Source: Paracoccaceae bacterium (GTDB taxonomy: Bacteria > Pseudomonadota > Alphaproteobacteria > Rhodobacterales > Rhodobacteraceae). From it: a DNA stretch of 64,000 nucleotides. The stretch lies in NCBI GenBank assembly GCA_027486345.1, contig JAIXPH010000064.1:1-64000 (forward strand), read 5' to 3'. This document shows positions 14,770 to 32,484 of the stretch, one piece after another. Every line of letters starts with the position of its first letter. Within the stretch, counting starts at the first letter, position 1. Below the pieces are notes generated by a model, which saw only the letters and a program-made list of their open reading frames with translations, ran no database searches and had not been told where the DNA came from. The position numbers were made by a program, and so were the translations under genes.

Positions 14770-16704
14770 ATGGCTTCTTCGACGATCCTCCGCTTGTCAC
14801 GTCGCAGTAAGCTGCTGACGTACTTCCTCATTGACCTCGCCCTGATCCCGCTCAGCTTCTACGCCGCCTTCGCGTTGCGGTATGGCAGCTTCCGGCCGAA
14901 CCAGTTGATGCAGGATGAAGCGGTGCTGTTCGCGGCGCTCATGCTCTGTGGTGTGCTCGTTTTGTTGGGTTTCCGGCTGCCGTGGATCAAGCTGTCGGCG
15001 CTGGAAGGCCGGGCCGTCGTCCGCATTGCGGCGGGGGCAGGCACTCTGGCCGTCTGCGCGATGGTGCTCAGCAGTGTCTTCGGCTTTGTCGGTGCGCGCT
15101 CCGTCCCGATGATCTTTGGCGCGGTCTTCTTCGCCAGCGCCCTCGCGGTGCGCTTTGCCCTGCTCGTCTTTGTTGGCGTGTTGAAGGACATGACGACCCA
15201 GCGGCGCCCGGTGGTGATCTATGGCGCGGGTTCGGCGGGATTGCAGATGGCTGGCATCCTGCGCAGCTCTCCGGAAATGCGCCGCGTGGGCTTTGTCGAT
15301 GACAATACCCATCTGCAAGGCGTTCTAATGGCGGGGATGCCGGTCTATTCTCCGCGCAAGCTGAAGAAACTTGCGCAACGCGCGAACAAGCCGATGGTGA
15401 TCGTCGCCATGCCCTCCGTGCCGAAATCGCGGCAGAACGCGATTGTCGCTGACACGCGCGCGATGGGCTTTGACGTGCGCATCATGCCCTCCCACACCGA
15501 GATGATCTCGGCGCGCGGCGTGACGTCCGAATTGATGACCGTCTCCCCGGATGCCATCCTGGGGCGGGACCGCGTCCAGCTTGATATCCCGGAAATCGCC
15601 CGCGCCTATGCCGGCCGGGCCGTCATGGTGACCGGCGCTGGCGGCTCCATCGGGTCCGAACTCTGCCGCCAATTGCTGGAATGCCGCCCGGCCCGCATCA
15701 TCCTGTTCGAACAAAGCGAATATGCGCTTTACCAGATCGACATGGAAATGCAGGCGCGCGGCATGGAACTGGGCATTCCCATCGTGGCCCGGCTCGGATC
15801 GGTGGCGGACCGCGCCCGGGTCGAGACGGTCATGCGCGAGCACAAGATCGAAATCGTCCTGCACGCCGCCGCCTACAAGCATGTGCCGCTGGTCGAAGAG
15901 AATGAACTGGAAGGCGCGCGCAACAATGTCGTCGGCACGCAGATCGTTGCCGAAGTCGCGCAGGCGCTGCGCGTGGAGCGCTTCATCCTCGTCTCCACCG
16001 ACAAGGCCGTGCGCCCGACCAACATCATGGGCGCGACAAAGCGCATGGCCGAACTGGTGGTGCAGGATCTGGCCACACGCGCGCAAATGACGCGCTTTGC
16101 CATGGTGCGCTTTGGCAACGTACTGGGCTCGTCCGGGTCGGTCTTGCCGCTGTTCCAAAAGCAGATCGCGGCGGGCGGTCCCGTCACGGTCACCCATCCC
16201 GAGGTGACGCGCTTCTTCATGACCATCCCCGAGGCCGCGCGACTCGTCCTGCTCGCCGGGGCCTATTCCGAGGGTGGTGACGTCTTCGTTCTGGATATGG
16301 GCGAGCCGCGGAAGATCGTCGACATCGCACGTCAGATGATCACGCTGTCAGGACGGACGGTCCGCGATCCCCAAACCGGCCAGGGTGATATCGAGATCCG
16401 CATCACCGGACTGCGCCCCGGCGAGAAGCTGTATGAAGAACTGCTGATCGACGATGCCAGCCTCCGCGCGACGCCCCACCCGAAAATCCTGCGGGCGCAA
16501 GAGAAAAGCCTGAGCCAGATCGAGGTGGCGGCCATGCTGCGGGAGATTTCGGGATGTGTGAACTCGAATGACTCTGATCGGTTGCGTTTGGTCGTGGCCA
16601 AGGCCGTCGAGGGCTATACGCGTCCGGACGCGGACCGTGCGCCCCGCCGCATGCAACAGTCCAAGGGGGCAGCGGTTATGGATGGGTCCGTCCTGAAGCC
16701 GTGA
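14770..16704 (+). CDS. Membrane-bound nucleotide-sugar 4,6-dehydratase (CapD/WbpM/PglF/FlaA1 family)
   Basis: A 644-residue protein. Residues 15-155 contain four or five membrane helices. A CoA-binding-like Rossmann region follows (IYGAGSAGLQMAG, about 149), then the SDR catalytic domain with TGAGGSIGSE (about 287), the VSTDKAV segment (about 408) and MGATK (about 420), where Met replaces the usual Tyr of YxxxK as in WbpM/PglF. Known members convert UDP-GlcNAc to UDP-4-keto-6-deoxy-GlcNAc. With the PglE-like aminotransferase and PglD/NeuD-like acetyltransferase in this window it would give UDP-diacetylbacillosamine, the start of a UDP-route to legionaminic acid. That pathway link is inference. 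Confidence 0.88.
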   Translation: MASSTILRLSRRSKLLTYFLIDLALIPLSFYAAFALRYGSFRPNQLMQDEAVLFAALMLCGVLVLLGFRLPWIKLSALEGRAVVRIAAGAGTLAVCAMVLSSVFGFVGARSVPMIFGAVFFASALAVRFALLVFVGVLKDMTTQRRPVVIYGAGSAGLQMAGILRSSPEMRRVGFVDDNTHLQGVLMAGMPVYSPRKLKKLAQRANKPMVIVAMPSVPKSRQNAIVADTRAMGFDVRIMPSHTEMISARGVTSELMTVSPDAILGRDRVQLDIPEIARAYAGRAVMVTGAGGSIGSELCRQLLECRPARIILFEQSEYALYQIDMEMQARGMELGIPIVARLGSVADRARVETVMREHKIEIVLHAAAYKHVPLVEENELEGARNNVVGTQIVAEVAQALRVERFILVSTDKAVRPTNIMGATKRMAELVVQDLATRAQMTRFAMVRFGNVLGSSGSVLPLFQKQIAAGGPVTVTHPEVTRFFMTIPEAARLVLLAGAYSEGGDVFVLDMGEPRKIVDIARQMITLSGRTVRDPQTGQGDIEIRITGLRPGEKLYEELLIDDASLRATPHPKILRAQEKSLSQIEVAAMLREISGCVNSNDSDRLRLVVAKAVEGYTRPDADRAPRRMQQSKGAAVMDGSVLKP

Positions 16705-17777: not shown

Positions 17778-18914
17778 CTAAAAGCTGTTGATTTTGTTCA
17801 ACATCTCTGGGGTCAGATCCATTGCGTCAAGATGCTCCAACAATCGGCGGTCCGTCTGCCCGTCGCCGTAGAGATTGACGAAGCGGCGTGGCATGGCCAG
17901 CGCCCGGGACAGGGTGGCACGGATCGAGGCGCTTGAAATCTCGGGGCAATCCAACGTGTTCGCATTGCGAAAGCGCCCGTTCTGTCGGCTTCCGATGTTG
18001 ACACAAGGCACCTGAAAGGACGCGGACTCGATGATTCCCGAGGACGAGTTGCCGACCATAACATCACAGATTTGCAGCACATCCAGATAGTCATCCCGCG
18101 CAAGATGCGTGACGATCACGAGTCCCTCTTGCCCCTCAAGGCCGTCGATGACGGCATCGATGCTGCGCCCCCCCGCGTCAGAGTTTGGCCGGAACAGCAC
18201 CGCCTGAAGGCCCAGCCCCTGGACCGACTCCATCACCGCTTCGAACTGTGATGCCGCGATTGCGGCTTCCTGGACGACCGGGTGAAAAACGACCAGCGCG
18301 ATGGGCCGGTCTGGCGACAGGCCAAACCGCTGTGCCACCTGTACGCGGTCCGCGCGGGGACGGTCCGCGACTCCGACCAGACCGGGCGCGCCGATCACGA
18401 ACACGGTCTCTGCCGCTTCTCCCATGCGCCGCAGGCGTTCGGCGGCGTCTTCTGTAGCCGGGAAATGAATATGGGCAAGTTTGCTGATGACATGCCGGAA
18501 GCTTTCATCCAGCGTGCCGGATCGTTCCCCGCCATGGATATGGGCGACATGCAGTCCCAGATGGACCGCGGCGAGGGCGGCAGCGACCATTTCCCCCCTG
18601 TCCCCGAGAAGCAGGACGAGATCCGGCCGGTCATTTTGCCACAAGGCGGTGAAGCCCCGCAGCATGTCCGCAAGCGCAAATGCCATTTCCGCCCCAGAGC
18701 CGCCATCCACCCGCGCCTCGATCCGGGCGACGACAGGCAGATCGCTGTCCACGATGTCCTGCACCGTTTTCCCGTGGCGTTGGGAAAGGTGCTGGCCCGT
18801 GACGACCACGCCGATGTCATGCCGTCCGCTTTGCCGGACTGTTTGAAGGCTCCGCCGCACCAGGCCGAAGTCGGCACGACTGCCGGACACGTAATGGATC
18901 TTCAATTTGGACAT
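17778..18914 (-). CDS. Hydrolysing UDP-HexNAc 2-epimerase (NeuC/LegG-like)
   Basis: A 378-residue GT-B-fold protein of the NeuC family. The N-terminus reads YVSGSRADFGLVRRSL (the SRADyG hallmark), followed by LLGDRGEM, HIHGGERSGTLDESFRHVISKLAHIHFPAT and a C-terminal VGNSSSGIIESASF. Family members release UDP and give ManNAc (NeuC) or 2,4-diacetamido-2,4,6-trideoxymannose (LegG). Given the dehydratase, aminotransferase and acetyltransferase in the cluster, the LegG reaction is the better guess. ATG follows GGGGGG closely. It is divergent from the flippase gene with only 65 bases between them. Confidence 0.88.
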   Translation of the reverse strand: MSKLKIHYVSGSRADFGLVRRSLQTVRQSGRHDIGVVVTGQHLSQRHGKTVQDIVDSDLPVVARIEARVDGGSGAEMAFALADMLRGFTALWQNDRPDLVLLLGDRGEMVAAALAAVHLGLHVAHIHGGERSGTLDESFRHVISKLAHIHFPATEDAAERLRRMGEAAETVFVIGAPGLVGVADRPRADRVQVAQRFGLSPDRPIALVVFHPVVQEAAIAASQFEAVMESVQGLGLQAVLFRPNSDAGGRSIDAVIDGLEGQEGLVIVTHLARDDYLDVLQICDVMVGNSSSGIIESASFQVPCVNIGSRQNGRFRNANTLDCPEISSASIRATLSRALAMPRRFVNLYGDGQTDRRLLEHLDAMDLTPEMLNKINSF

Positions 18915-20512: not shown

Positions 20513-20532
20513 CGGCGAAAGGAGGGTGCGCA

Positions 20533-21504
20533 ATGCCCAATCCCAATGACCAGAGCGACCCGAACAGAGGTTTGCCATCGCCCCCACAGGCGGGCCTTGT
20601 GATCGGTCAGGGCTCCATCGGCCAAAGGCACAGCAGGATTCTGGCCGAGCTTGGCCTTGCGACATGGGCCGTCAGTCGGCGGCCCTCGACCAACCCTCAG
20701 GTGCTGCCGTCCCTTTCCACGGCACTAGAGCAAGCGCGACCGAGCTATGTGGTGATCGCCAGCGCCACGGCAGAGCATCGGGGCGATCTGGCAGCGCTGG
20801 CCCACCTCGGATTTGCGGGACGTGTTCTGGTCGAAAAACCGCTGTTCAGCGCTCCGGCCCCCCTGCCCGACCATCATTTCGCAGCGCTGCATGTCGCCTA
20901 TAACTTGCGCTACCATCCCTTGGTCCAGCGCTTGCGCGAGCTGTGCCTTGAGGACCGGGTTTGCTCGGCACAAGTCTATGTCGGGCAATATCTTCCGTCT
21001 TGGCGCCCGCACAGCGATTACCGCGCCAGTTATTCCGCCCATGCCGCACAGGGCGGCGGCGTCCTGCGCGACCTCAGCCATGAGTTGGATTACCTGATGT
21101 GGCTTGTCGGGGATTGGCGTGCCGTCACGGCGGCGGGCGGACAGGTCAGCGATCTGGACATCGACAGTGACGATGTCTTCACCCTGCTGATGCGGACAGA
21201 GCGTTGCCCCCTCGTCTCTGTCCAGATGAACTATCTGGACCGCGTCGGCCGGCGCGAGATCACGATCAACACGGCCAGCCGGACATTGCGGGCGGACCTT
21301 GTGGCCAATACCCTGTGGGTGGACGGGACCGAAACCCGCTTTCCCCCGCTTGACCGTGACCTGACATATCGGAACATGCACATCGACCTTCTGCAAGCCG
21401 GGGGGGCCGCCTTGGCCTGTAGCCTTGGCGAAGGGCAGTCGGTCATGGATTTGATCGCCGCGGCAGAGGCCGCTTCATTTGGAAAAGTCTGGGTAGAAAG
21501 ATGA
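20533..21504 (+). CDS. Gfo/Idh/MocA-type NAD(P)-dependent oxidoreductase
   Basis: A 323-residue protein. The N-terminal Rossmann motif is GQGSIGQRHSRIL (residues 25-37), followed by the EKP motif of the family (VLVEKPLF, about 104). A C-terminal alpha/beta domain carries HELDYLMWLVGD. It starts at ATG 20533 with GGAGGG seven bases upstream, although the frame is open further back. Its stop overlaps the next start (ATGA). MocA-type enzymes oxidise or reduce sugar hydroxyl or keto groups. Its place beside the CMP-sugar synthetase and PtmA-like SDR suggests a modification of the nonulosonic acid or of another repeat-unit sugar. The substrate is unknown. Confidence 0.78.
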   Translation: MPNPNDQSDPNRGLPSPPQAGLVIGQGSIGQRHSRILAELGLATWAVSRRPSTNPQVLPSLSTALEQARPSYVVIASATAEHRGDLAALAHLGFAGRVLVEKPLFSAPAPLPDHHFAALHVAYNLRYHPLVQRLRELCLEDRVCSAQVYVGQYLPSWRPHSDYRASYSAHAAQGGGVLRDLSHELDYLMWLVGDWRAVTAAGGQVSDLDIDSDDVFTLLMRTERCPLVSVQMNYLDRVGRREITINTASRTLRADLVANTLWVDGTETRFPPLDRDLTYRNMHIDLLQAGGAALACSLGEGQSVMDLIAAAEAASFGKVWVER

Positions 21505-22214
21505 TCAGGTTTTGTTCGATCTGCGCGCGTGGTGGATCAAAAGGGGTCAAAGGCAAGAACATCCGTCCGCTGCTCGGGGTGCCGCTGATCGTGCATTCCA
21601 TCCGGCAAGCACGGGCCACCGGGCTGTTCGACGTCATTTCTGTCAGCAGCGACAATGACGCCATCCTCGAGGTGGCGCGGGCGGAAGGGGTGGACTTCGC
21701 CCACAAGCGCCCCGAAGCCCTGGCCACGGACACGGCGGCGAAAATCCCCGTGATCCGGCATTGCATGGAACGGACCGAGGCGGAGTCGGGCCTTCGGGCC
21801 GACATGGTGGTGGATCTGGACGCCACCTCTCCGCTGCGCGACGTGGCCGACATCACGGGCGTCGTGACCCTGATGGAGCAGAGCGGGGCAAGCAATGTCT
21901 TCACCGTCACCCCGTCGCGCCGGTCGCCCTATTTCAACATGGTCGAGATCGATGCAGAGGGTCGGCCGCGCACCTCAAAAACCCCGCCCGCGCAGGTGGT
22001 CCGTCGTCAGGATGCGCCGGCCAGCTATGACATGAACGCCTCGATCTACGCCTGGACGCGGGACACGCTTCTGGCTCAGGACAGCCTGTTCCTGCCGATG
22101 ACGCGCTGCCTGATCATGCCGGAGGAGCGGTCCTTTGACATCGACAGCGAGGTGGATTTCCGCTTTGTCGAACTGCTGATGCGGGATCGCGGCACGTCGG
22201 AGGCTGAGGCATGA
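21501..22214 (+). CDS. CMP-nonulosonate (acylneuraminate) cytidylyltransferase, NeuA/LegF/PtmB-like
   Basis: A 237-residue protein with the family N-terminus CSICARGGSKGVKGKNIRPLLG (nucleotide-binding loop), then VDLDATSPLR and the C-terminal segment ERSFDIDSEVDFRFVE typical of NeuA-like synthetases. It activates sialic, legionaminic or related acids with CTP to CMP-sugars. Overlaps of ATGA type join it to the oxidoreductase before and the SDR after. The pairing with a PtmA-like SDR resembles the Campylobacter ptm locus and favours a legionaminic-type substrate (inference). Confidence 0.9.
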   Translation: MIRFCSICARGGSKGVKGKNIRPLLGVPLIVHSIRQARATGLFDVISVSSDNDAILEVARAEGVDFAHKRPEALATDTAAKIPVIRHCMERTEAESGLRADMVVDLDATSPLRDVADITGVVTLMEQSGASNVFTVTPSRRSPYFNMVEIDAEGRPRTSKTPPAQVVRRQDAPASYDMNASIYAWTRDTLLAQDSLFLPMTRCLIMPEERSFDIDSEVDFRFVELLMRDRGTSEAEA

Positions 22215-22996
22215 CCCTGTCAGGATTTGACCTTCAGGACCGGCTGTTCTGCGTGACCGGGGGGGCGGGATTGCTGGGCAAGGTGTTTTGCACCGCCATC
22301 GCCGCCGCAGGGGGCCGGGTCATCGTGTCGGACCATGATGCCGACCGCGCCCAGGCGACGGCCGAGGCGATCAACGCGGCCCATCCCGGCCGCGCCATCG
22401 CCCGGGCGATGGACATCACCGACGAGACGAGCGTGACGGCCCTATTGTCCGATCTGCCGCGGGAGCATGGGCCGATCCATGGGCTGGTGAACAACGCCTA
22501 TCCGCGCAATGCCCGCTATGGCCGCAAGCTGGAGGAGGTGACCTATGCCGATTTTTGCGAGAACATGGCGTTGCATGCGGGGGGCTATTTCCTGACCAGC
22601 CAGAAATTCGCGGCCTATCTGGCGGCGACGGGCGGCGGCAGCATCGTGAACCTGTCCTCGATCTATGGCGTCATCGCCCCCCGGTTCGAGGTCTATGAGG
22701 GCACGCCCATGACGATGCCGGTGGAATATGCCGCGATCAAGGCGGCCGTGCTGCACCTGACACGCTATTTCGCGCAATACTACCGCAAGGCGGGGGTGCG
22801 GGTGAATGCGATCAGTCCCGGTGGCATCTTCGACAACCAGCCCGAGCCCTTTGTCCGCGCCTATGGGGCGCAGGCCGGGCAGAAGGGGATGCTGGACAAG
22901 GAGGACCTCGCCGGGACACTGGTCTACCTCTTGTCCGACGCCGCCCGCCATATGACCGGCCAGAACCTGATCGTGGATGACGGCTTCACGCTTTGA
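22211..22996 (+). CDS. PtmA-like short-chain dehydrogenase
   Basis: A 261-residue SDR with TGGAGLLGK (cofactor loop, residues 16-24), NNAYPRNARYGRKLEEVTYADFCENM, the active-site SSIYGVIAP and EYAAIKAAV (YxxxK), and the C-terminus GQNLIVDDGFTL. These segments agree closely with what I remember of Campylobacter PtmA, a flagellin glycan modification protein of the legionaminic acid locus. Its exact reaction here is unknown. It ends the plus-strand operon and overlaps the opposing Wzy-like gene by 11 bases. Confidence 0.82.
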   Translation: MTLSGFDLQDRLFCVTGGAGLLGKVFCTAIAAAGGRVIVSDHDADRAQATAEAINAAHPGRAIARAMDITDETSVTALLSDLPREHGPIHGLVNNAYPRNARYGRKLEEVTYADFCENMALHAGGYFLTSQKFAAYLAATGGGSIVNLSSIYGVIAPRFEVYEGTPMTMPVEYAAIKAAVLHLTRYFAQYYRKAGVRVNAISPGGIFDNQPEPFVRAYGAQAGQKGMLDKEDLAGTLVYLLSDAARHMTGQNLIVDDGFTL

Positions 22997-23954: not shown

Positions 23955-25021
23955 TCCTGCTTTTCCTTCCCACTCAGCGCACGGCGCACCCAACGCTGCA
24001 AAGGCATCTCAATCCAACGGTAGGTGAAATATGCCACAACGCAGGACACGACGAAGAAACAGGCGAACGTGACCCCCAACGGCAAAGCGAACTTGGTGCC
24101 GATGATTGTCACTCCCTGAAACACGAACCAGTGAACAAGGTAAACAGAATAGCTGATTTCACCAAGAAATCCACTGACTCGCCTGAGAGCCTTCGGAACA
24201 TGCGCGTGATACATAACATAGACCACCGCGAAGGACACAGCCGTAAGAAAAAGATAGGCTGAGGTGGACTTCATGATGTCCACGGGAAAGATGAATGAAA
24301 AAAGGCCGACAACTCCCACAAGGACGATACCCAAGGGCAAGTTGTCACGACGTAGTGTCGGCGCATCTTTCTGAATCAGGAAACCAAAGGCAAAGAAAGG
24401 CGCAAAAACAAGCGGATTTGCGTAGAGATACCACGAGACCGGCTCAGCGAAATTTTCGGAAAGCGCAATGCCAGCATGCTGAATCGGGATCAGCGCCAAG
24501 GAGCAAACAAGGATCGTTATTTTTCGCGCATTCCCGACAAACAGCATGAGAATTGGGAACATCACATAAAACAAGATTTCAATGGCGAGCGACCAAGCCC
24601 CGACTGTATTGGACGACAGCGCCGCAGCATGAAGAGAAAAAAGGCCCGATGCAGTCAGAAGGAAGCGCGCAAAATCACTTCCATCAAAGGTGCCCGAGGA
24701 AATCACTCGCAAGACCTGCATGGCCAATGCCGTCAGAAAAAGCAGGGGCAGGATGCGCGCGATACGATTGACAAGAAAACCTTGAATGACCGTCAAATCA
24801 ATCGTGCTCTTGAACGCCTTGCCATAGCAATGAGCCATGGTGAGCGACGACAAGATGAAGAAGATATAAACAGAGAAAGTTCCCATACTTTCTATGTGCG
24901 CGGTCCCGGTCCAAAGCAGGAAGTGATAAACGATTACGCAGAGCGCACACAGTCCACGGGTAAGATCAAGGGCATGAAGGCGAACAGGTCTTGGTCCACG
25001 GCTTGTCGCTGCCCCGCTCAT
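23951..25021 (-). CDS. Acyltransferase-3 family membrane O-acyltransferase
   Basis: A 356-residue protein with about ten membrane helices and the Acyl_transf_3 hallmarks: HALDLTRGLCALCVIVYHFL (the His and R/G region at residues 16-36) and LGEISYSVYLVHWFVFQ near the C-terminus. Such enzymes acetylate or otherwise acylate polysaccharide sugars from the cytoplasmic side. No C-terminal SGNH domain is present. ATG 25021 overlaps the upstream stop (ATGA); a GTG lies three codons earlier. It shares the lower G+C content of the polymerase candidate. Confidence 0.85.
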   Translation of the reverse strand: MSGAATSRGPRPVRLHALDLTRGLCALCVIVYHFLLWTGTAHIESMGTFSVYIFFILSSLTMAHCYGKAFKSTIDLTVIQGFLVNRIARILPLLFLTALAMQVLRVISSGTFDGSDFARFLLTASGLFSLHAAALSSNTVGAWSLAIEILFYVMFPILMLFVGNARKITILVCSLALIPIQHAGIALSENFAEPVSWYLYANPLVFAPFFAFGFLIQKDAPTLRRDNLPLGIVLVGVVGLFSFIFPVDIMKSTSAYLFLTAVSFAVVYVMYHAHVPKALRRVSGFLGEISYSVYLVHWFVFQGVTIIGTKFALPLGVTFACFFVVSCVVAYFTYRWIEMPLQRWVRRALSGKEKQE

Positions 25022-26271
25022 CCAAGCCACCCCAACACGTCCTCCACAATCGCCTCTGTCGCGGTTTGGCGCAAGGGTGGTTCGGAGGGCCTTGTCCGGC
25101 GCTCTTGCAAGCGGGGCAACAGACGCTCCACCGCCGGGGCGATGTCGGGCAGGTCGGGGACAGGCACGCTCATCCCGAAGTCGCCATAGGGCGCGTCCTT
25201 GGCAAAGACCGACCGCTCCACGCTCAGCATCTGGGTGCCGGCCAGATAGGCCTGCAAGCCCACCGTCGAGGCGGTCACCACCACCAGATCCACCGCCTGC
25301 ACCAAGGCGTTCACGTCATCGGCGCGCGGGCTGGCATGGATGCGCGGTCCGGTGGCGATCTCTTGATCCTCGCTCGGGTGGCGGCGGATCACCAGTTCCA
25401 GACGCGGATCGGCCGCCACCATCGCCACGAGGTGCCGCTCCAGCGCACGCGGCAGATCGGGATCAGCGGGCAATCCGGTGTAGGGATGCAGCTTCGGCTC
25501 CGGCGTGCTGGCATAGAGCAGCGTGGTGCGCCCCCCCTGCCCCCAACCCCGCGCCGCGCGCATCGCCGCCGCCGCCGCCTTGACCTGCGGGTCATGCAGG
25601 CTGTCAAAGGCCGGGTTGCCCGTGACGCGGATATCGGCTTCGGGCCGTCCATGGCGCAGGAACATCGCCTTCACGCTCTCATCCAGCACATAGATCCGGC
25701 GGGCAAAGTTCGGCTGGGCGATCCAGCGCACCGCGTGCAAGGCAAACAGGTCCACCAGACAGGCCGAGGCAATCCCCAACTCTCCCGCCGCCTCGATCGC
25801 CGCCTGTTCCGATCGGGGCGAGTTCGTCGTCAGCACAAAGCGCGGCGCAATCCGGCTGAGCACCGACCGCATCAGGCGACGCGGATGGAAGTGCTGCCGT
25901 CCGCCATGGGCCCATGCCTCCGCCGCCGCGGCGGGACCAAGGCTCTCTTCCAGATCGCGGTAATTCAGGCCCAGATAGGCCGCCGTCTCGGAGGCGGGCA
26001 GGACCCCGTTCTGTGGCATGTCCTGCATCAGGCGCGCGGCCACGGCCTGCGTTTCCGGCTCTGCCGCCTCGGGCAGATCGGCATAGGTGAAATAGGGCAG
26101 GTCCGTCGCCGCCAGAACCGCGATGGCCGTCGTCAAGGCGAGGACGCACACCCGGACACCCCGCGCCTGCAAGGCCTTGGCCACCGGCACCACCGCTTGA
26201 ACATGCCCGCCCCCGTAGACCACGACCAGCACATCCACGGCCCCCGCCGCCGGAACCCCACGTTGTGCCAT
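25018..26271 (-). CDS. GT-B-like putative glycosyltransferase
   Basis: A 417-residue soluble protein with an N-terminal Rossmann-like start (VLVVVYGGGHVQAVVPVAKALQARGV, residues 13-39) and a C-terminal half reading TTLLYASTPEP, LELVIRRHPSE, AVDLVVVTASTVGLQAYLAGT. That order resembles the nucleotide-sugar-binding half of GT-B enzymes and of capsule or CDP-glycerol type transferases. I do not recognise the exact family. As the only non-initiating transferase candidate in the cluster it may transfer the nonulosonic acid. TGATG links it to the acetyltransferase upstream. Confidence 0.55.
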   Translation of the reverse strand: MAQRGVPAAGAVDVLVVVYGGGHVQAVVPVAKALQARGVRVCVLALTTAIAVLAATDLPYFTYADLPEAAEPETQAVAARLMQDMPQNGVLPASETAAYLGLNYRDLEESLGPAAAAEAWAHGGRQHFHPRRLMRSVLSRIAPRFVLTTNSPRSEQAAIEAAGELGIASACLVDLFALHAVRWIAQPNFARRIYVLDESVKAMFLRHGRPEADIRVTGNPAFDSLHDPQVKAAAAAMRAARGWGQGGRTTLLYASTPEPKLHPYTGLPADPDLPRALERHLVAMVAADPRLELVIRRHPSEDQEIATGPRIHASPRADDVNALVQAVDLVVVTASTVGLQAYLAGTQMLSVERSVFAKDAPYGDFGMSVPVPDLPDIAPAVERLLPRLQERRTRPSEPPLRQTATEAIVEDVLGWLG

Positions 26272-26924
26272 CACTCCGCCCCCCCCGACGCCAAGGCCTT
26301 GGCTGGCACGCCGACATAGGTGCCCGGCTGCGTGATGTCGCGGGTGACGACCGCCCCCGCCCCGATCACCGCACCAGAGGCGACCGAAATCCCCGGCAAC
26401 ACGGTGGCATTGGTGCCCAGAAACACCTGTTCACCCAAGTGCACGCCCCCCCCGATGACACTGCCCGGCGCGAGGTGGCAAAAGTCGCCCACCCTCGCAT
26501 CATGCTCCACCACGGCCCGGCTGTTGATGATCACGCCACGCCCGATCAGGGCGCCCGTATTGACCAAAGCCCCGGCCAGCACCTGACTGCCCGGCCCCGG
26601 CGCGGTTTCGGCCATGTAGACTGTCGGCTCCATGACGATCGCCAACATCCGGGCACCCAACCCCTCGGCTTCTCTTTGCAGCGCGGCGCGACGGCCATTG
26701 TCGCCAACCGTAATCAAAAGAGGATACTGCACGACATCCGCGATGGCCTGTCCGACGACGGCCATCCCCGACACGGTCGTTCCGAGGTCCCGATTGGCAT
26801 CGCCAAACAGGCAAGCTGTCTTGTGAAACCGCCAGAGTTGGGCAGCCACCACGCGCCCGTGACCGCCAGCACCGAAAAGGCACGCCACAGCCTCCATCGG
26901 TTCCGCGGGGCGAGGCTCAGACAT
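26271..26924 (-). CDS. NeuD/PglD-type sugar O/N-acetyltransferase (left-handed beta-helix)
   Basis: A 217-residue protein. An N-terminal nucleotide-like domain starts LFGAGGHGRVV (about residue 16). The C-terminal hexapeptide-repeat helix (GALVNTGALIGRGVIINSRAVVEHDARVGDF..., GVHLGEQVFLGTNATVLPGISV, GAGAVVTRDI) ends with GVPAKAL. The catalytic His is expected in VVEHDA. Relatives are PglD (acetylates UDP-4-amino-sugar to diacetylbacillosamine) and NeuD. With the PglE-like aminotransferase in the same operon, the PglD/LegH step is the likely job. ATG 26924 overlaps neuB by eight bases. Confidence 0.82.
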   Translation of the reverse strand: MSEPRPAEPMEAVACLFGAGGHGRVVAAQLWRFHKTACLFGDANRDLGTTVSGMAVVGQAIADVVQYPLLITVGDNGRRAALQREAEGLGARMLAIVMEPTVYMAETAPGPGSQVLAGALVNTGALIGRGVIINSRAVVEHDARVGDFCHLAPGSVIGGGVHLGEQVFLGTNATVLPGISVASGAVIGAGAVVTRDITQPGTYVGVPAKALASGGAE

Positions 26925-27963
26925 CCGACTCGCGCACAAGGCTGTTGCCCTGCACATCTGCCTTCAACGCGCGGCCCACGACACGGTCCATGCCATCTGG
27001 CGGCAAACCAAGGCCCGGCCGCTTTGCGGTCAGGTCCCCAGCCTCCACCACATGCCCCTGCGGCAGATCGCGGCGATAGACGAGGCTTTTGCGCGCGACC
27101 GAACGCACGTCCTTTTCGACCGCGCGGGGGCGCTTGATGCCGTCGCCCAGCCCTGCCTCCACTTTTCGCAGTACCTCGACCATGTCGGCGAAATCGTCCG
27201 GCGTCACGGAGGCGCGGTGATCCGGGCCCTCCATCGTGCGATCCAGCGTGAAGTGTTTTTCCAGAACCGCCATCCCGAGGGCACGCGCGGCAATGGCGGC
27301 ATAGGGGCCGATGGTGTGATCGGAGAAACCCACGGGACAACCAAAGGCGGATTGCATCATCGGAAGAACGCGCAGGTTCTGATCTTCAATGGCAGCCGGG
27401 TAATCGGACACGCATTGCAGCACGGCCAGCGGCACCTTGCCGCCCAACCAATCCACCGAACGGGCCACCTCGGCCAAAGAGCCCATTCCTGTCGACAACA
27501 GCATCGGCAGTCCGCTCGCGGCAGCCTGCATGAGCATCGGCTGGTTGGTCAGTTCACCCGACGCCCATTTCAGACAGACAGGTGCGAGCGAGATGACAAA
27601 CTCCAGACTGGGCGCATCAAAAGCAGTCGAGATGAAGTCAATCCCACTCACCTGACAATGGCGTTGCAGTTCCGCAAAAGCGGCAAAGGGCAATTCGTAG
27701 CGGCGCAACATGTCGGTCTGCGAGGTCGCGGCACCAAGATTTCGGCTTTGATATGCGGCTTGCGCCGCATCCGGCAGGACCAGTTCCTCGGTCCGATAAG
27801 TCTGGAACTTCACCGCATCGGCACCGGCCGCAACCGCAGCGTCGATCAGACGATGGGCCAGCGCCATGTCCCCATTATGGTTCACACCGATTTCGGCGAT
27901 GATGTAGCAGGGGTCCGCAGCCGATACTCTGCGTTGGCCGATGTGAATTGCGGGACTCGTCAT
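26917..27963 (-). CDS. Nonulosonic acid synthase (NeuB/LegI-like) with SAF domain
   Basis: A 348-residue protein. The NeuB TIM barrel shows AEIGVNHNGDMALAHRLIDAA, AGADAVKFQTY, DFISTAFD, KWASGELTN, LSTGMGSLAEV, GFSDHTIG and EKHFTLDR-MEGPDH. The C-terminal SAF (antifreeze-like) domain (about 285-348) includes RKSLVYRRDLPQGHVVE. It condenses a 2-acetamido hexose with phosphoenolpyruvate to a nine-carbon acid. The substrate is predicted as the 2,4-diacetamido trideoxymannose made by the NeuC/LegG-like enzyme. ATGA overlap with the aldolase upstream. Confidence 0.93.
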   Translation of the reverse strand: MTSPAIHIGQRRVSAADPCYIIAEIGVNHNGDMALAHRLIDAAVAAGADAVKFQTYRTEELVLPDAAQAAYQSRNLGAATSQTDMLRRYELPFAAFAELQRHCQVSGIDFISTAFDAPSLEFVISLAPVCLKWASGELTNQPMLMQAAASGLPMLLSTGMGSLAEVARSVDWLGGKVPLAVLQCVSDYPAAIEDQNLRVLPMMQSAFGCPVGFSDHTIGPYAAIAARALGMAVLEKHFTLDRTMEGPDHRASVTPDDFADMVEVLRKVEAGLGDGIKRPRAVEKDVRSVARKSLVYRRDLPQGHVVEAGDLTAKRPGLGLPPDGMDRVVGRALKADVQGNSLVRESDV

Positions 27964-28805
27964 TGGCTTGCCTTACGTAAACGGACCATCTCTGCGGCCT
28001 GGCGTATGTGATCATGCGTCGCAACGCGGTTCAATTCCAAGTCGTCGCTGGTCTGGGACTGGAACGCATCGAAGATCGCGCGCAGTTTCGCGACTTCCGA
28101 CGCAAAATCCATGGAACCGCGCAATTCGTCCAAGGTCTGCGCATTGCGATGAAAGGTCTGGGACAGGATGGCGCAGGTCGAGCCGAGGCGCACATGTTCA
28201 CCCAGCAGGATGTCCGGTGGAACGATGCCTTCCCCCGCGCGGGCGATGCCACCGATGCCGAATTCGACATCCGCCTCACGCAAGAACGCACATGGGGCTT
28301 CCAGGACGCCGTTTGCAAGCGGTTCGAACAAGAAATCGTTCTTGAGATCAAGGTGAAGGTCATTCATCCCGATATGCAAGCGACGCAGACCAACAGCAGG
28401 CACGATGTCTGGGATCGCGGCCACCGAAGCCGACGTTTCAAACAACGGCACAGGCTCGGCCCTGCCCGCGAGCAGGTCACAAAAGCGCTCAACGCTGGCA
28501 CGGTCATGGAACATCGGCAGCATCACGCCATCCGCGCCTCGCGCCACCACCTCGTCGATTTCGCGCCGTGATCCGTCGTGCAGCGGATTGACACGGACCA
28601 AGACGTAACAATCGGCCAGTGCCTCGCGCATGCGGGACACATCGTCGATGGTCTGCTTGCTTTTCCACGTCGTCAGGTGCCCCTGACGCTCCGTCTTGCC
28701 CATGAATTCCAGATCGACGAAGGCATCAATGCCGCCCACCTGTGCGACATGGCGCGCAATCTCGGTGTCATTCGACACCAGCATGAACCGCAAGGAGGCC
28801 GTCAT
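27960..28805 (-). CDS. HpcH/HpaI-type aldolase-like protein inside the nonulosonate operon
   Basis: A 281-residue TIM-barrel-like protein of the HpcH/HpaI (citrate-lyase beta/phosphopyruvate) superfamily. It has DAFVDLEFMGK, VLVRVNPLHDGSRREIDEVVARGADGVMLPMF, VPLFETSASVAAIPDI and LHIGMNDLHLDLKN. The E...D metal-binding spacing of the family (Glu of LFET, Asp of GMNDLH) is present. Known members cleave or form C-C bonds with pyruvate, oxaloacetate or acyl-CoA units. It is locked between the amidotransferase and neuB by ATGA overlaps on both sides. A role in making an unusual acyl or carboxyl decoration on the sugar is speculation. Confidence 0.7.
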   Translation of the reverse strand: MTASLRFMLVSNDTEIARHVAQVGGIDAFVDLEFMGKTERQGHLTTWKSKQTIDDVSRMREALADCYVLVRVNPLHDGSRREIDEVVARGADGVMLPMFHDRASVERFCDLLAGRAEPVPLFETSASVAAIPDIVPAVGLRRLHIGMNDLHLDLKNDFLFEPLANGVLEAPCAFLREADVEFGIGGIARAGEGIVPPDILLGEHVRLGSTCAILSQTFHRNAQTLDELRGSMDFASEVAKLRAIFDAFQSQTSDDLELNRVATHDHIRQAAEMVRLRKASQ

Positions 28806-30631
28806 GTCAGCACCAGCGGCTGCTGGGAAATGGCCCGCAAGGCATCATCTTGATCGATGAACAGTCGGAACCAGAGTTCAAGCGAGATCAAGGCGCGCAA
28901 TTGCCGGGTATAATTTGCGGTGCCGGACAGATGTGCAGCGAGCATCTCTGCCACAAAACCCGGATCGACAATGCCGCGCGCCCCAAGACGCCCATCAAGC
29001 AACATGTCGCGGCAATAGCCTGCCAGAGACGTCCGGAACCAGTCGCCCACCGGAACCGTGAACATCTGCTTCTTGCGGTACGTCAATTCCGACCCCAGCA
29101 GGGGCTGGACCGCCTTCTTGTAGATCGACTTCGTCTCGCCCCCGGTCAACTTGAGCGCACCCGGCATCTGGAATGCGAATTCCGCCATCCGGTAATCAAG
29201 GAAGGGTGACCGAACCTCTAGCGAATTGGCCATTGCCATCCGGTCCGGCTTGACCAGATTGTTCCCCGGCAACAGGACCGTGGTTTCGGCAAACAGCACG
29301 CGGTTGATGGGATCTTGCCCGTCGGCAAGGCGAACTTGACCCGCAAGCGCGCGATAGGGATCAAGGTCACCAAAGGCCGATTTGAGCGGACCGATCAGCA
29401 ATCGTTGACCTTCGTCCGCCTGCAACAAGCCGGACGACCGCACAAAACGATCTTCCCAACCCGTCTCCAGATGGTCGACACGCCCCTCGCTGAAAAAGTC
29501 GGCATACTTTTCGTAGCCGGCGAACAGCTCATCGCCGCCGTCACCGGTCAGGACCATCTTCACATCGCGGGACGCCACCGCCGACACCTGATCCATCGGC
29601 ATGAACGACACATCGCCATGCGGTTGGTCCACATGCCAGATGAACCTCGGCCACAAAGCGGCGAGGTCGGGTTCCATGTAGTTGACTTCGTGCAATGTGC
29701 CAAAGCGCTGCGAGGCAAGCCGCGCGAAGTAGGTTTCGTCATACCCGGAATTGCGAAATCCGATCGAGTAGGTGCGCACCGGGGTCTTCTGATACAAGCT
29801 CATGAAACCGACGACGGACGAACTGTCCAATCCGCCGGACAGGAACGCACCGAACTGCGCGTCCGAGCGCATCCGCAACCGCGTGGCGTCATCCAGCAGC
29901 GCCAGCAATCCGGCCTTGCCTTCGGCTTCCGTCATGTCCGGAACGGGCTTGACATCAGCCAGCGACCAATAGGCATGCAGGTCCAAGCCCGTCCGCGAAA
30001 TCCTTGCGTAGTGTCCGGGCGGAAGATGCCGGATGCCAGCGAATGCCGTCGCAGGCTGAGGAATGTAGTTCAGGGCAAGGTATTGCGCGATGGCATCATA
30101 ATCGGCCTCTGCCGGATGCCCCGCGGCCAGCAACGTCTTGATCTCGGACGCGAACCACAGGCGGCCGGTCTGGACCGATCCGCAATAATACAACGGCTTC
30201 ACACCAAGCCTGTCACGATAGAGCCAGACTTCCTCGCTGTCTCGGACATGGATTGCGATGGCAAACATGCCATTCAGTCTGCCGACGAACTCGTGCCCCC
30301 AGGTCTCGAATGCCCGCAAGAGCACTTCCGTGTCGCCGCTCGTCGAGAAGCGGCACCCCAGCTGTCGCAACTCTGCACGCAGTTCGACAAAGTTGTAGAT
30401 TTCACCGTTCTGGACCAGCGCGATATTGCCGTCATCCGAGAACAGGGGTTGGTTGCTTGCCTCGCTCAGGTCGAGGATGGACAGACGGGTGTTTCCAACC
30501 GCGGCGCGCGGCGTGGCGGCAAACCCCATGGCATCGGGCCCACGATGCCTGAGCGATGCACCCACGGCAGCCAGCGCATCATCCGAGACATTTCCAAGCG
30601 CAAAACAATAATTGCCAAAAATACCACACAT
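28802..30631 (-). CDS. Glutamine-hydrolysing asparagine-synthase-like amidotransferase
   Basis: A 609-residue protein. It starts MCGIFGNYC, so Cys2 is the class II glutaminase nucleophile, and the glutaminase domain covers about residues 2-190 (RHRGPDAMG, NGEIYN). The synthase domain has the ATP PP-loop SGGLDSSSV (about 264) and the GDGGDELFAGYEKY segment. Housekeeping AsnB makes asparagine. Homologues in O-antigen and capsule clusters (for example WbpS-like proteins) amidate uronic or nonulosonic carboxyl groups. Its place in a translationally coupled sugar operon favours the second role (inference). Confidence 0.85.
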   Translation of the reverse strand: MCGIFGNYCFALGNVSDDALAAVGASLRHRGPDAMGFAATPRAAVGNTRLSILDLSEASNQPLFSDDGNIALVQNGEIYNFVELRAELRQLGCRFSTSGDTEVLLRAFETWGHEFVGRLNGMFAIAIHVRDSEEVWLYRDRLGVKPLYYCGSVQTGRLWFASEIKTLLAAGHPAEADYDAIAQYLALNYIPQPATAFAGIRHLPPGHYARISRTGLDLHAYWSLADVKPVPDMTEAEGKAGLLALLDDATRLRMRSDAQFGAFLSGGLDSSSVVGFMSLYQKTPVRTYSIGFRNSGYDETYFARLASQRFGTLHEVNYMEPDLAALWPRFIWHVDQPHGDVSFMPMDQVSAVASRDVKMVLTGDGGDELFAGYEKYADFFSEGRVDHLETGWEDRFVRSSGLLQADEGQRLLIGPLKSAFGDLDPYRALAGQVRLADGQDPINRVLFAETTVLLPGNNLVKPDRMAMANSLEVRSPFLDYRMAEFAFQMPGALKLTGGETKSIYKKAVQPLLGSELTYRKKQMFTVPVGDWFRTSLAGYCRDMLLDGRLGARGIVDPGFVAEMLAAHLSGTANYTRQLRALISLELWFRLFIDQDDALRAISQQPLVLT

Positions 30632-30633
30632 GA

Positions 30634-32142
30634 TCAGATGCCGCCTCTATGCAAGATCTCGGTCAAATTGCCGATCACCCGGTCCTGCTGGTCTTGCGAC
30701 ATGTTCGACCCTGACGGCAGGCAAAGGGCGCGCAGGAAGAGGTTCGAGGACACGGCTTCGGTCTGGGAATGCGGAACAAACTCCGCGCTGTGCAACAAGG
30801 GCTGCATATGCAGCGGCTTCCACGACGGACGGGTCTCGATCCCCCGCTGGCTGAGCGCGCGCATGACTTGATAAGGATGCAGCCGGATATGGTCAGGATC
30901 GAAGGTCAGCACCGTCAGCCAGCGGTTGCCTTTTGCTTCGGCCCAATCCTGCTGGAAACCGATCCCAGGGATGCCCGACAGGGCGTCAAGATATCTCGCG
31001 AAGATGGCCCGACGCTGGGCCACGCGATCATGCAGCACTTCCAGCTGACCAAGGCCAACGCTGGCCAAGACATTGGACATTCGATAGTTATAGGCAATCT
31101 CAGAATGTTGATAATGATCAAAGGGATCGCGGCCCTGGGTCGATAGGTAGCGCACACGCTCGGCGATCTTCGGATCGTCGGTCACAACCGCGCCACCGCC
31201 CGAGGTCGTGATGATCTTGTTTCCGTTGAACGAGAAGACAGAGATCAAACCATGGGCACCACTGGCCCGGTTGTCGTAGAGCGCACCAAGGCTTTCCGCT
31301 GCATCTTCGATGACCGGGATGCCAAATCTGCCCGCCAAGGCCATGATCCGGTTCATTTGGGCGCTTTGGCCGTAGAGATGCACGACGATGATGGCACCGG
31401 GCAGACTGTTTGCGGCGTGGTCTTGGATCAACTGCCGTTCAAGAGCGTCTGCGGAAAGATTCCAGCTGAGCGGTTCTGCATCGATGAGAACCGGGGTCAT
31501 GCCTTCATAAAGAACGGGCTGCACCGACGCGACGAAGGTCTTGTCGGAAACGTAAATGCGCGCGTTTTTCGGCAGGTCGAGCGCCCGCAAGGCCAAATGC
31601 AGGCCCGCCGTCCCCGAAGAAACCGCCACCGCCTCACGACGGCCGCTCACTTCGGCAAGCCGACGCTCAAAGAGCGCCAGATTCGGCCCTGCTGGCGCAA
31701 TCCAGTTGGTGTCGAAGGCCTGTTGAACGTAGCGCTCCTCGGCATCTCCGATGTGCGGAGACGATAGAAGCACGGGTGCGACAACCTGATCCACGCTGCA
31801 AATGTCCACAGGCCGACCCACCTCATCCAGCAAGATGATCGAAGACACGCGATGTTCGTCGAACATGAATTTGAGTTCAGCCGGGGACGTCGAACTTGGC
31901 GCACAGACCGGCTCTCTGCCGGGAAGGTCGGACAAGGCGCTTTCGAGCGTCAGCCCCGCAAGCAGGCCCCGCCGCACATCACCGTCGGTTACAGATCTGA
32001 GAAGTTTGCCATCCGCGTTCACGACGAGGCACATCTTCGGACGGCCGCTCTCGATTTTCACCAATGCGTCACGCACAAGGTCCGAAGGCTGGAGGCATCC
32101 AACGGCAGTTCCAAATCTTGGATTCCGCACCGTGTCGATCAT
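30634..32142 (-). CDS. CBS-domain pair fused to DegT/PglE-type sugar aminotransferase
   Basis: A 502-residue protein. Residues about 10-120 form two CBS motifs (LVKIESGRPKMCLVVNADG-LLRSVTDGDVRRG; FMFDEHRVSSIILLDEVGRPVDI). Residues about 124-500 are a complete DegT/DnrJ/EryC1 PLP aminotransferase beginning PHIGDAEERYVQQAFDTNWIAP, with SSGTAGLHLAL, EDAAES-G and the Schiff-base lysine in SFNGNKIITTSGGG (about residue 309), closest by eye to PglE/EpsN. It should aminate UDP-4-keto-6-deoxy-GlcNAc. In the GDP-route, CBS pairs precede the nucleotidyltransferase PtmE/LegX; here they precede the aminotransferase and no such nucleotidyltransferase is seen. ATG 32142 has GGAG five bases upstream; a longer frame reaches 32202. 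First gene of an eight-gene operon. Confidence 0.85.
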   Translation of the reverse strand: MIDTVRNPRFGTAVGCLQPSDLVRDALVKIESGRPKMCLVVNADGKLLRSVTDGDVRRGLLAGLTLESALSDLPGREPVCAPSSTSPAELKFMFDEHRVSSIILLDEVGRPVDICSVDQVVAPVLLSSPHIGDAEERYVQQAFDTNWIAPAGPNLALFERRLAEVSGRREAVAVSSGTAGLHLALRALDLPKNARIYVSDKTFVASVQPVLYEGMTPVLIDAEPLSWNLSADALERQLIQDHAANSLPGAIIVVHLYGQSAQMNRIMALAGRFGIPVIEDAAESLGALYDNRASGAHGLISVFSFNGNKIITTSGGGAVVTDDPKIAERVRYLSTQGRDPFDHYQHSEIAYNYRMSNVLASVGLGQLEVLHDRVAQRRAIFARYLDALSGIPGIGFQQDWAEAKGNRWLTVLTFDPDHIRLHPYQVMRALSQRGIETRPSWKPLHMQPLLHSAEFVPHSQTEAVSSNLFLRALCLPSGSNMSQDQQDRVIGNLTEILHRGGI

Positions 32143-32484
32143 AACATCTCCAAAACCAAAAATACGGTCGTCAAATTCTATGCCGCCATTGAGAAGAAAC
32201 ACACTATCAAGTCAAGACCTCGTGGTCCCGGCGCTTGCCGAAAGAGGTGACGGTGGGGCGGTCAGTGTATCGGTGACATGTCCCTTGGGACACGCTGCTT
32301 TCCACTGTCAGCGGGGCAAAACACCCAAGCTATGGGCTGCACTGCAATCGGTTCCATCTTGCGGACCGCCGCCCCCGGCGGCTTTCAAACAGACCCAAAG
32401 TGCCGCAGCCCGCCATTGCCGAAAAGGCCAAACAATGCTACCGCGCAGGCTACATCTTGGAATGACATAACGGAGTGGCGGCAG
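32143..32484. other. Divergent intergenic region upstream of the aminotransferase operon and ahcY
   Basis: About 340 bases. It should hold promoters for both directions. I see a GC hairpin at 32366-32381 but no convincing S-adenosylhomocysteine or SAM riboswitch core upstream of ahcY. Confidence 0.4.
32366..32381. repeat. Perfect GC hairpin
   Basis: CCGCCG and CGGCGG enclose CCCC, followed by CTTTC on the plus strand. It is about 105 bases before the ahcY start and could be a weak terminator or leader structure. Confidence 0.3.

Follow-up and report, generated by a model that had tools for sequence, protein, structure and literature searches.

A CBS-domain pair fused to a LegC/PglE-like aminotransferase in nonulosonate loci: a candidate sensor of the pathway's end product

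A protein of 502 residues in which a pair of CBS repeats directly precedes a complete aminotransferase of the DegT type was found in a nonulosonate locus of a Paracoccaceae bacterium (contig JAIXPH010000064.1, positions 1 to 64,000; this whole stretch of 64,000 nucleotides is referred to here as the window). The architecture was confirmed to be real and far above chance. The preliminary description had allowed for two genes being run together by a frameshift or by faulty assembly; this was ruled out, since homologues with the same two parts occur in many independent genomes (24 non-redundant fusions, all from Pseudomonadota). The parts of the fusion are of known kinds; a wider, testable rule may stand behind their combination. 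We give an even chance to the reading that the CBS pair senses a CMP-nonulosonate and throttles the aminotransferase of a UDP-linked route, the ligand and the direction of the effect being putative. This suggests, as a testable idea, that synthesis may be shut off by the activated sugar in which it ends. If true, a sensor module recurring on early steps of different CMP-ulosonate pathways would reduce bacterial control of the flux into sialic-acid-like surface sugars to a single, simple and testable rule, and would help in the production of CMP-nonulosonates in vitro. Among the matches listed in open-licence full text, no description of a CBS-aminotransferase fusion in nonulosonate synthesis was found, nor any open-licence paper combining CBS domain, aminotransferase and legionaminic.

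The fusion protein and the operon that it opens

The preliminary description gave no strand; the fusion gene is on the minus strand and runs as a single open frame from an ATG at 32142 to a stop at 30634 (Table 1). Reading the plus strand from 30634 meets stops; an alternative GTG start is possible at 32202. AlphaFold2 modelled the whole protein with a mean pLDDT of 89.2 and a pTM of 0.80, and a linker between the CBS and aminotransferase parts is nearly absent. The coordinates first given are correct, and the order of domains first described, a CBS pair and then a complete DegT-type aminotransferase, was confirmed.

Table 1. Features of the fusion gene and its surroundings (window positions)
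Feature	Coordinates	Strand	Basis or remarks
CBS-pair/DegT aminotransferase fusion, 502 aa	30634..32142	(-)	open frame, Pfam, AlphaFold2
CBS pair, residues about 16-122	31777..32097	(-)	fusion profile, AlphaFold2 model
Putative ligand site of CBS1, RSVTDGDVRR, residues 49-58	31969..31998	(-)	conservation, motif shared with KpsF and PtmE
DegT/LegC/PglE-like aminotransferase domain, residues about 124-499	30646..31773	(-)	Pfam, PDB matches
K309 codon	31216-31218	(-)	in SFNGNKII
Asparagine-synthase-type amidotransferase (AsnB), next gene after the fusion	28802..30631	(-)	Pfam, NCBIfam; 2-nt gap
HpcH/HpaI aldolase-like protein	27960..28805	(-)	Pfam 27.7 bits, cut-off 25
NeuB nonulosonate synthase	26917..27963	(-)	Pfam 273.9 bits; NCBIfam 385.1, just under equivalog cut-off 399.65
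NeuD/PglD-type acetyltransferase	26271..26957	(-)	NCBIfam 179.8 bits, cut-off 160.8
Glycosyltransferase-like protein, end of overlapping run	25018..26274	(-)	no Pfam match; weak NCBIfam only; 4-nt overlap
NeuC-type UDP-GlcNAc 2-epimerase	17778..18914	(-)	358.5 bits, cut-off 235.9
WbpM/PglF-type nucleotide-sugar dehydratase (function by family)	14770..16704	(+)	PF02719 404.9 bits; PseB model 178.7, under cut-off 407.75
Gfo/Idh-type oxidoreductase (start approximate)	20527..21504	(+)	Pfam
CMP-nonulosonate synthetase-like (NeuA/PseF-like)	21501..22214	(+)	Pfam 70.2 bits; PseF 126.9, cut-off 205.7
PtmA-like short-chain dehydrogenase (SDR)	22211..22996	(+)	FlagModPtmA 214.7, cut-off 350

The aminotransferase half matched Pfam DegT_DnrJ_EryC1 over residues 131-493 (303.8 bits). 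Its nearest solved structures by sequence were 1o61 (E 4.3e-73; titled 'aminotransferase') and 4ztc (E 3.1e-72), both of which we take to be PglE; when the PDB was searched with the whole protein, every match started at residue 118 or later and none extended into the CBS part. Besides the DegT fold, the protein has a lysine in the conserved SFNGNK motif: K309, presumably the PLP lysine, is invariant across 23 aligned fusions, all 23 of which matched Pfam DegT and 22 of which matched Pfam CBS (E 0.001). The best NCBIfam model was LegC (TIGR04181), whose 338.4 bits fall below the equivalog cut-off of 420; one of the other fusions, L049, passes it with 488.5 bits. The window protein thus shares with PglE/LegC the whole aminotransferase domain, the lysine motif and a context of dehydratase, NeuD, NeuC and NeuB, but differs in its CBS part, unmatched in those structures, and in its score under the LegC cut-off. 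It is probably the C4 aminotransferase of a UDP-linked route to a sugar of the legionaminic-acid (5,7-diamino nonulosonate) type, the activity and the exact sugar being predicted.

The fusion gene opens a tightly packed operon that continues with AsnB, the HpcH-like protein, NeuB, NeuD and the glycosyltransferase-like protein, separated by +2, -4, -4, -41 and -4 nt, in that order. The entry enzyme of the GDP route to legionaminate is the CBS-nucleotidyltransferase PtmE; it combines CBS with an NTP_transferase domain, a combination that the window locus lacks. As first described, PtmE is absent from the locus: the rest of the window gave no match at E 1, and of the matches in the genome apart from the fusion gene the best was 44% over 64 residues, to the catalytic part, in a 308-aa frame. 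The gene set of the UDP route without PtmE (dehydratase, aminotransferase, NeuD-type protein, NeuC, NeuB and CMP-synthetase) is present in the window, as assigned by family and with several genes under their equivalog cut-offs. From its genes the route looks UDP-linked and legionaminate-like, with the exact product conjectural, and with a WbpM-type dehydratase present, PtmE would not be expected. Two papers describe both UDP-linked and GDP-linked nonulosonate (legionaminate) routes (PMC6137143, PMC7439481); the second has legionaminate made through the UDP route in Bacillus subtilis, and its text does not contain the word CBS. PtmE is named in PMC7371886.

The genes for AsnB and the HpcH-like protein (27960-30631) also adjoin CBS-aminotransferase genes that have no NeuB nearby (L126, L260). 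The Gfo/Idh, CMP-synthetase and SDR genes (20527-22996) recur in the same order beside a PtmE gene at L148:12174-14619; in the window they stand without PtmE.

Occurrence of the fusion, its tie to NeuB and its origins

Of 18 other genomes of the window's genus, 2 had a fusion, as had at least 6 of the 385 genomes of a sample of the class (the window's own included); 37 of the 385 gave a match at E 1e-60. A scan with one genome per species contained 14 fusions among its best 80 loci, from Amphritea, Caulobacterales, Methyloversatilis, Agrobacterium, Burkholderiales, Ramlibacter, Legionella worsleiensis, Devosia, Minwuia and further taxa. The fusion is also present on plasmids, three of them from Rhodobacterales and one from Azospirillum; in the plasmid search, 11 of 748 records covered at least 80% of the query, and 4 of these 11 were examined. 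The non-redundant set excludes L001, L005, L023, L030 and L126 as already represented; L087 was also left out of the CBS count. The preliminary description had named an architecture both common and insensitive to nucleotides as telling against its idea; the first half of this was found, in that the fusion is not unique.

In a Sinorhizobium fredii plasmid (NZ_CP029452.1, 1145759-1147048), a 32% match to query residues 37-499 reaches into the CBS part and is perhaps another fusion. The loci L022 and L023 are the fusion locus on plasmids of Pseudohalocynthiibacter and Roseovarius; a recent transfer is suggested because the two plasmids, from different genera, have mostly identical protein accessions. 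Beside this fusion lie genes for HisH, a HisF-like cyclase subunit and an N-acetyl sugar amidotransferase.

Fusion loci show a recurrent order, neuA-neuB-neuC-neuD-[CBS-aminotransferase], followed in several by a WbpM-type dehydratase. Among the best 80 loci of the species scan, counting only those of at least 12 kb, NeuB lay alongside 12 of 13 fused genes as against none of 57 unfused ones (Fisher p 1.2e-12, a value that ignores kinship). Kinship confounds this tie, the fused genes all being from Pseudomonadota and the unfused mostly from Bacillota and others. In the thirteenth fused locus (L126) the first 130 residues are identical to those of a protein from genome G118, which has NeuB elsewhere. 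L126 is one of four fused loci without a nearby NeuB, the others being L258 (an 8-kb contig) and L259 and L260 (of the genus of G118); the genomes of all four (G118 standing in for that of L126) have NeuB elsewhere, and NeuB was found in nine of nine genomes queried, one of them with a CBS remnant only.

Alphaproteobacterial neighbourhoods of 18-19 kb around an unfused gene had no NeuB (four of four, L032-L035). In G010, a genome of the window's genus that is 95% complete, the unfused aminotransferase adjoins NeuD and a dehydratase 79% identical to that of the window, and no NeuB match was obtained at E 1e-40. Thirteen alphaproteobacterial genomes with unfused near relatives comprised seven with NeuB somewhere and six with none; in G051 and G045 the unfused aminotransferase is close to NeuB. 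It is only among near relatives that the fusion tracks nonulosonate synthesis. LegC-type aminotransferases at a greater distance are unfused in NeuB loci and mostly beside PtmE.

A tree built from 86 aminotransferase domains allowed a single clade for the 22 main fusions (AU p 0.555); a single origin for all 24 was rejected (AU p 2e-51). The trees, in which KpsF and crowded unfused rows had been thinned, suggest that fusion took place at least three times: since the 24 do not form one clade, the Azospirillum fusion (L025) and the LegC-type L049 look separate, unless the domain is often gained and lost. A tree of 62 CBS modules (119 columns) placed the 22 main-lineage modules together and apart from those of PtmE (support 91/87, not starred), with L049 nearest the PtmE modules by path and L025 on a long branch of unsure place. 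The preliminary description had the CBS module move to the aminotransferase. Its kinship with the modules of PtmE and KpsF agrees with this, but an origin from PtmE is not shown for the main lineage of 22 fusions, because its modules group apart from PtmE's; such a move appears likelier for L049, judging by its path to the PtmE modules.

The CBS pair and its relatives on other enzymes

Pfam recognised CBS in the window protein with 31.9 bits (cut-off 24), best over residues 71-119; the first repeat alone was weak (18.8 bits). A profile of related fusions spanned the pair with 127.8 bits (the window's own sequence being among its rows), and the CBS part, modelled alone by AlphaFold2, gave two CBS repeats in one module (mean pLDDT 89.8). 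Over 20 main-lineage rows (L025, L049 and L038 were left out), the columns of RSVTDGDVRR had a mean identity of 0.84, versus 0.32 for the rest of the module. The motif is kept in CBS1 only, CBS2 of the window protein being without it, and outside the motif the window CBS is divergent (22-34% identity).

A TDGDxRR-like motif is common to PtmE, a CBS-NeuB fusion (SDGDFRR), CBS-GHMP kinases and KpsF, the exceptions among the modules compared being L049 (AGLDARR), one PtmE (YDGDIRR) and one KpsF (L226). Of the 10 CBS proteins in the window's genome, two carry it, namely KpsF (TDGDLRR) and the fusion, and the other 8 do not. The KpsF model TIGR00393 matched the CBS part of the window protein (24.5 bits) as well as L064, L049, L025 and one PtmE; its positions 169-261 alone matched the window protein, at residues 17-109, and Pfam found no SIS catalytic domain there. 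When the CBS model was compared by Foldseek with the KpsF-type CBS structures 3k2v and 4o9k, which we take to contain CMP-Kdo, a TM of 0.73 was obtained, several IMPDH, GMPR and MgtE entries standing above these two in order of E-value. KpsF/KdsD is the entry enzyme of the synthesis of Kdo, a CMP-ulosonate pathway. The arabinose-5-phosphate isomerases KpsF/GutQ/KdsD thus bear the same kind of CBS pair with its motif, but join it to a SIS catalytic domain (PMC10448790), and their catalysis is unrelated to that of the window protein. Judged from these likenesses, the window CBS pair is related to the pairs of PtmE and KpsF.

PtmE has a related N-terminal CBS pair, stands in the same kind of locus with one CBS protein per locus examined, and carries the motif as [T/S]DGDxRR, like the window fusion (with Y in one of 24); unlike the fusion, its catalytic domain is NTP_transferase. 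A sample of the phylum that did not include the window's own genome had NeuB in at least 147 of 398 genomes, among the matches listed (to about E 5e-87), and 80 NeuB neighbourhoods were inspected: 66 chosen so as to give about one per genus, and 14 more picked in some cases for a long NeuB frame (L208, L209) and in others as more loci of sampled genera or genomes. One CBS protein of the shared kind was present in 26 of these, two in none, and none in 54. The first 66 held 22 of the PtmE type and one aminotransferase fusion (L193); the further 14 held one CBS-NeuB protein (L209) and two CBS-GHMP kinases (L214 and L221, of one genus). Domain names of the 26 were assigned by Pfam for nine, by similarity to the PtmE of L160 for sixteen and, for L221, by CBS similarity to L214. 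A strong LegC/PglE-like aminotransferase occurred in 11 neighbourhoods, in nine with PtmE, in one as the fusion and in one without CBS (a 6.6-kb contig). All 24 fused loci contained exactly one CBS protein, some being short and L030 only half a locus. None of the 24 had a good PtmE match, the sole PtmE-like nucleotidyltransferase match being one of 25% at the far end of L078. This exclusivity of fusion and PtmE is partly explained by the fact that the UDP route needs no PtmE.

The CBS-NeuB protein (L209:8072-10405, minus strand, genome G446) is 778 aa long and combines the same kind of CBS pair with NeuB, SAF and a xylose-isomerase-like domain. The kinases (L214:7379-8899, plus strand; L221:10110-11630, minus strand; genus g285) consist of a CBS pair and a GHMP kinase, the gene adjoining NeuB in L214.

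What the CBS pair may sense

In the proposed mechanism, the N-terminal Bateman module would be an allosteric switch on the C4 aminotransferase. CBS1 would bind a CMP-nonulosonate, or a close CMP species, through its T-D-G-D-x-R-R site, and the bound end product would slow the aminotransferase, which would catalyse the first soluble step dedicated to the pathway once the dehydratase has acted; other glycans may draw on the same UDP-GlcNAc and dehydratase. A common sensor would thus be placed early in each pathway, on the isomerase for Kdo, on PtmE in the GDP route and on the aminotransferase in the UDP route. Counting for such a CMP-nonulosonate sensor, which we hold to be an evenly balanced proposition, are the tie to NeuB, the repeated fusion, the single CBS protein per locus, the motif and the kinship with KpsF. 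Counting against it are the 54 of 80 NeuB neighbourhoods without such a CBS protein; the NeuB-linked LegC-type aminotransferases, mostly unfused (10 of the 11 surveyed, nine of them with PtmE in the locus); the adenine nucleotides for which CBS pairs are best known; the Foldseek order; the confounding by kinship; the divergent window CBS, with no motif in CBS2; AGLDARR in L049; the part of the exclusivity with PtmE that the route accounts for; the AsnB and HpcH-like genes, for which the mechanism gives no place; the UDP route of B. subtilis; and the unfused genes of G051 and G045. More tentatively, and with somewhat less than even confidence, we propose that this kind of CBS pair (R-x-x-T-D-G-D-x-R-R or close) is a general CMP-ulosonate sensor repeatedly placed on early pathway enzymes, its carriers being KpsF/KdsD, PtmE, the present aminotransferase and further NeuB and GHMP kinase, all under the same end-product feedback.

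The preliminary description had the aminotransferase respond to an adenine or cytidine nucleotide, such as ATP or a CMP-sugar. Its feedback idea gains partial support, for the CMP-sugar, which would fit better than ATP because of the kinship with the CBS pair of KpsF and the pathway itself; binding and feedback stay conjectural. Adenine nucleotides are the best-known ligands of CBS pairs, and the top Foldseek matches include nucleotide-bound IMPDH, MgtE and AcuB, as would suit a sensor of energy state or of nucleotides in general that ties amination to ATP, ADP or AMP. We nonetheless consider that rather unlikely: the genome's 8 other CBS proteins lack [T/S]DGDxRR, which KpsF has, and among near relatives the fusion tracks NeuB, not the aminotransferase reaction as such. 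CBS pairs also often dimerise, and a module that sets the oligomeric state or gathers pathway enzymes, without any regulatory ligand, would be in keeping with the tightly packed operon and the near absence of a linker; the strongest conservation of the module, however, falls in the ligand-site motif, and modules of this kind are joined to four further types of catalytic domain (nucleotidyltransferase, NeuB, GHMP kinase and KpsF), so that a purely structural role seems unlikely.

A sensor of the substrate or of a UDP-sugar intermediate, working by feed-forward or substrate inhibition and not through the CMP end product, would likewise act at an early step, and uridine and cytidine sugars are alike. 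The pathways of KpsF and PtmE, which carry the same kind of CBS, nevertheless share a CMP-ulosonate product class and not a UDP-sugar intermediate, and we regard this explanation as very unlikely. Hardly credible is a joining error or a functionless passenger domain, given the 24 non-redundant fusions in independent genomes and the conserved motif, even though the window CBS is divergent and L061 (G164), a sister of the Azospirillum fusion, keeps only an N-terminal CBS remnant of 13 bits without the TDGD motif. The idea that the degenerate CBS of L061 goes with loss of NeuB was weakened, since NeuB lies about 20 kb from it on the same contig.
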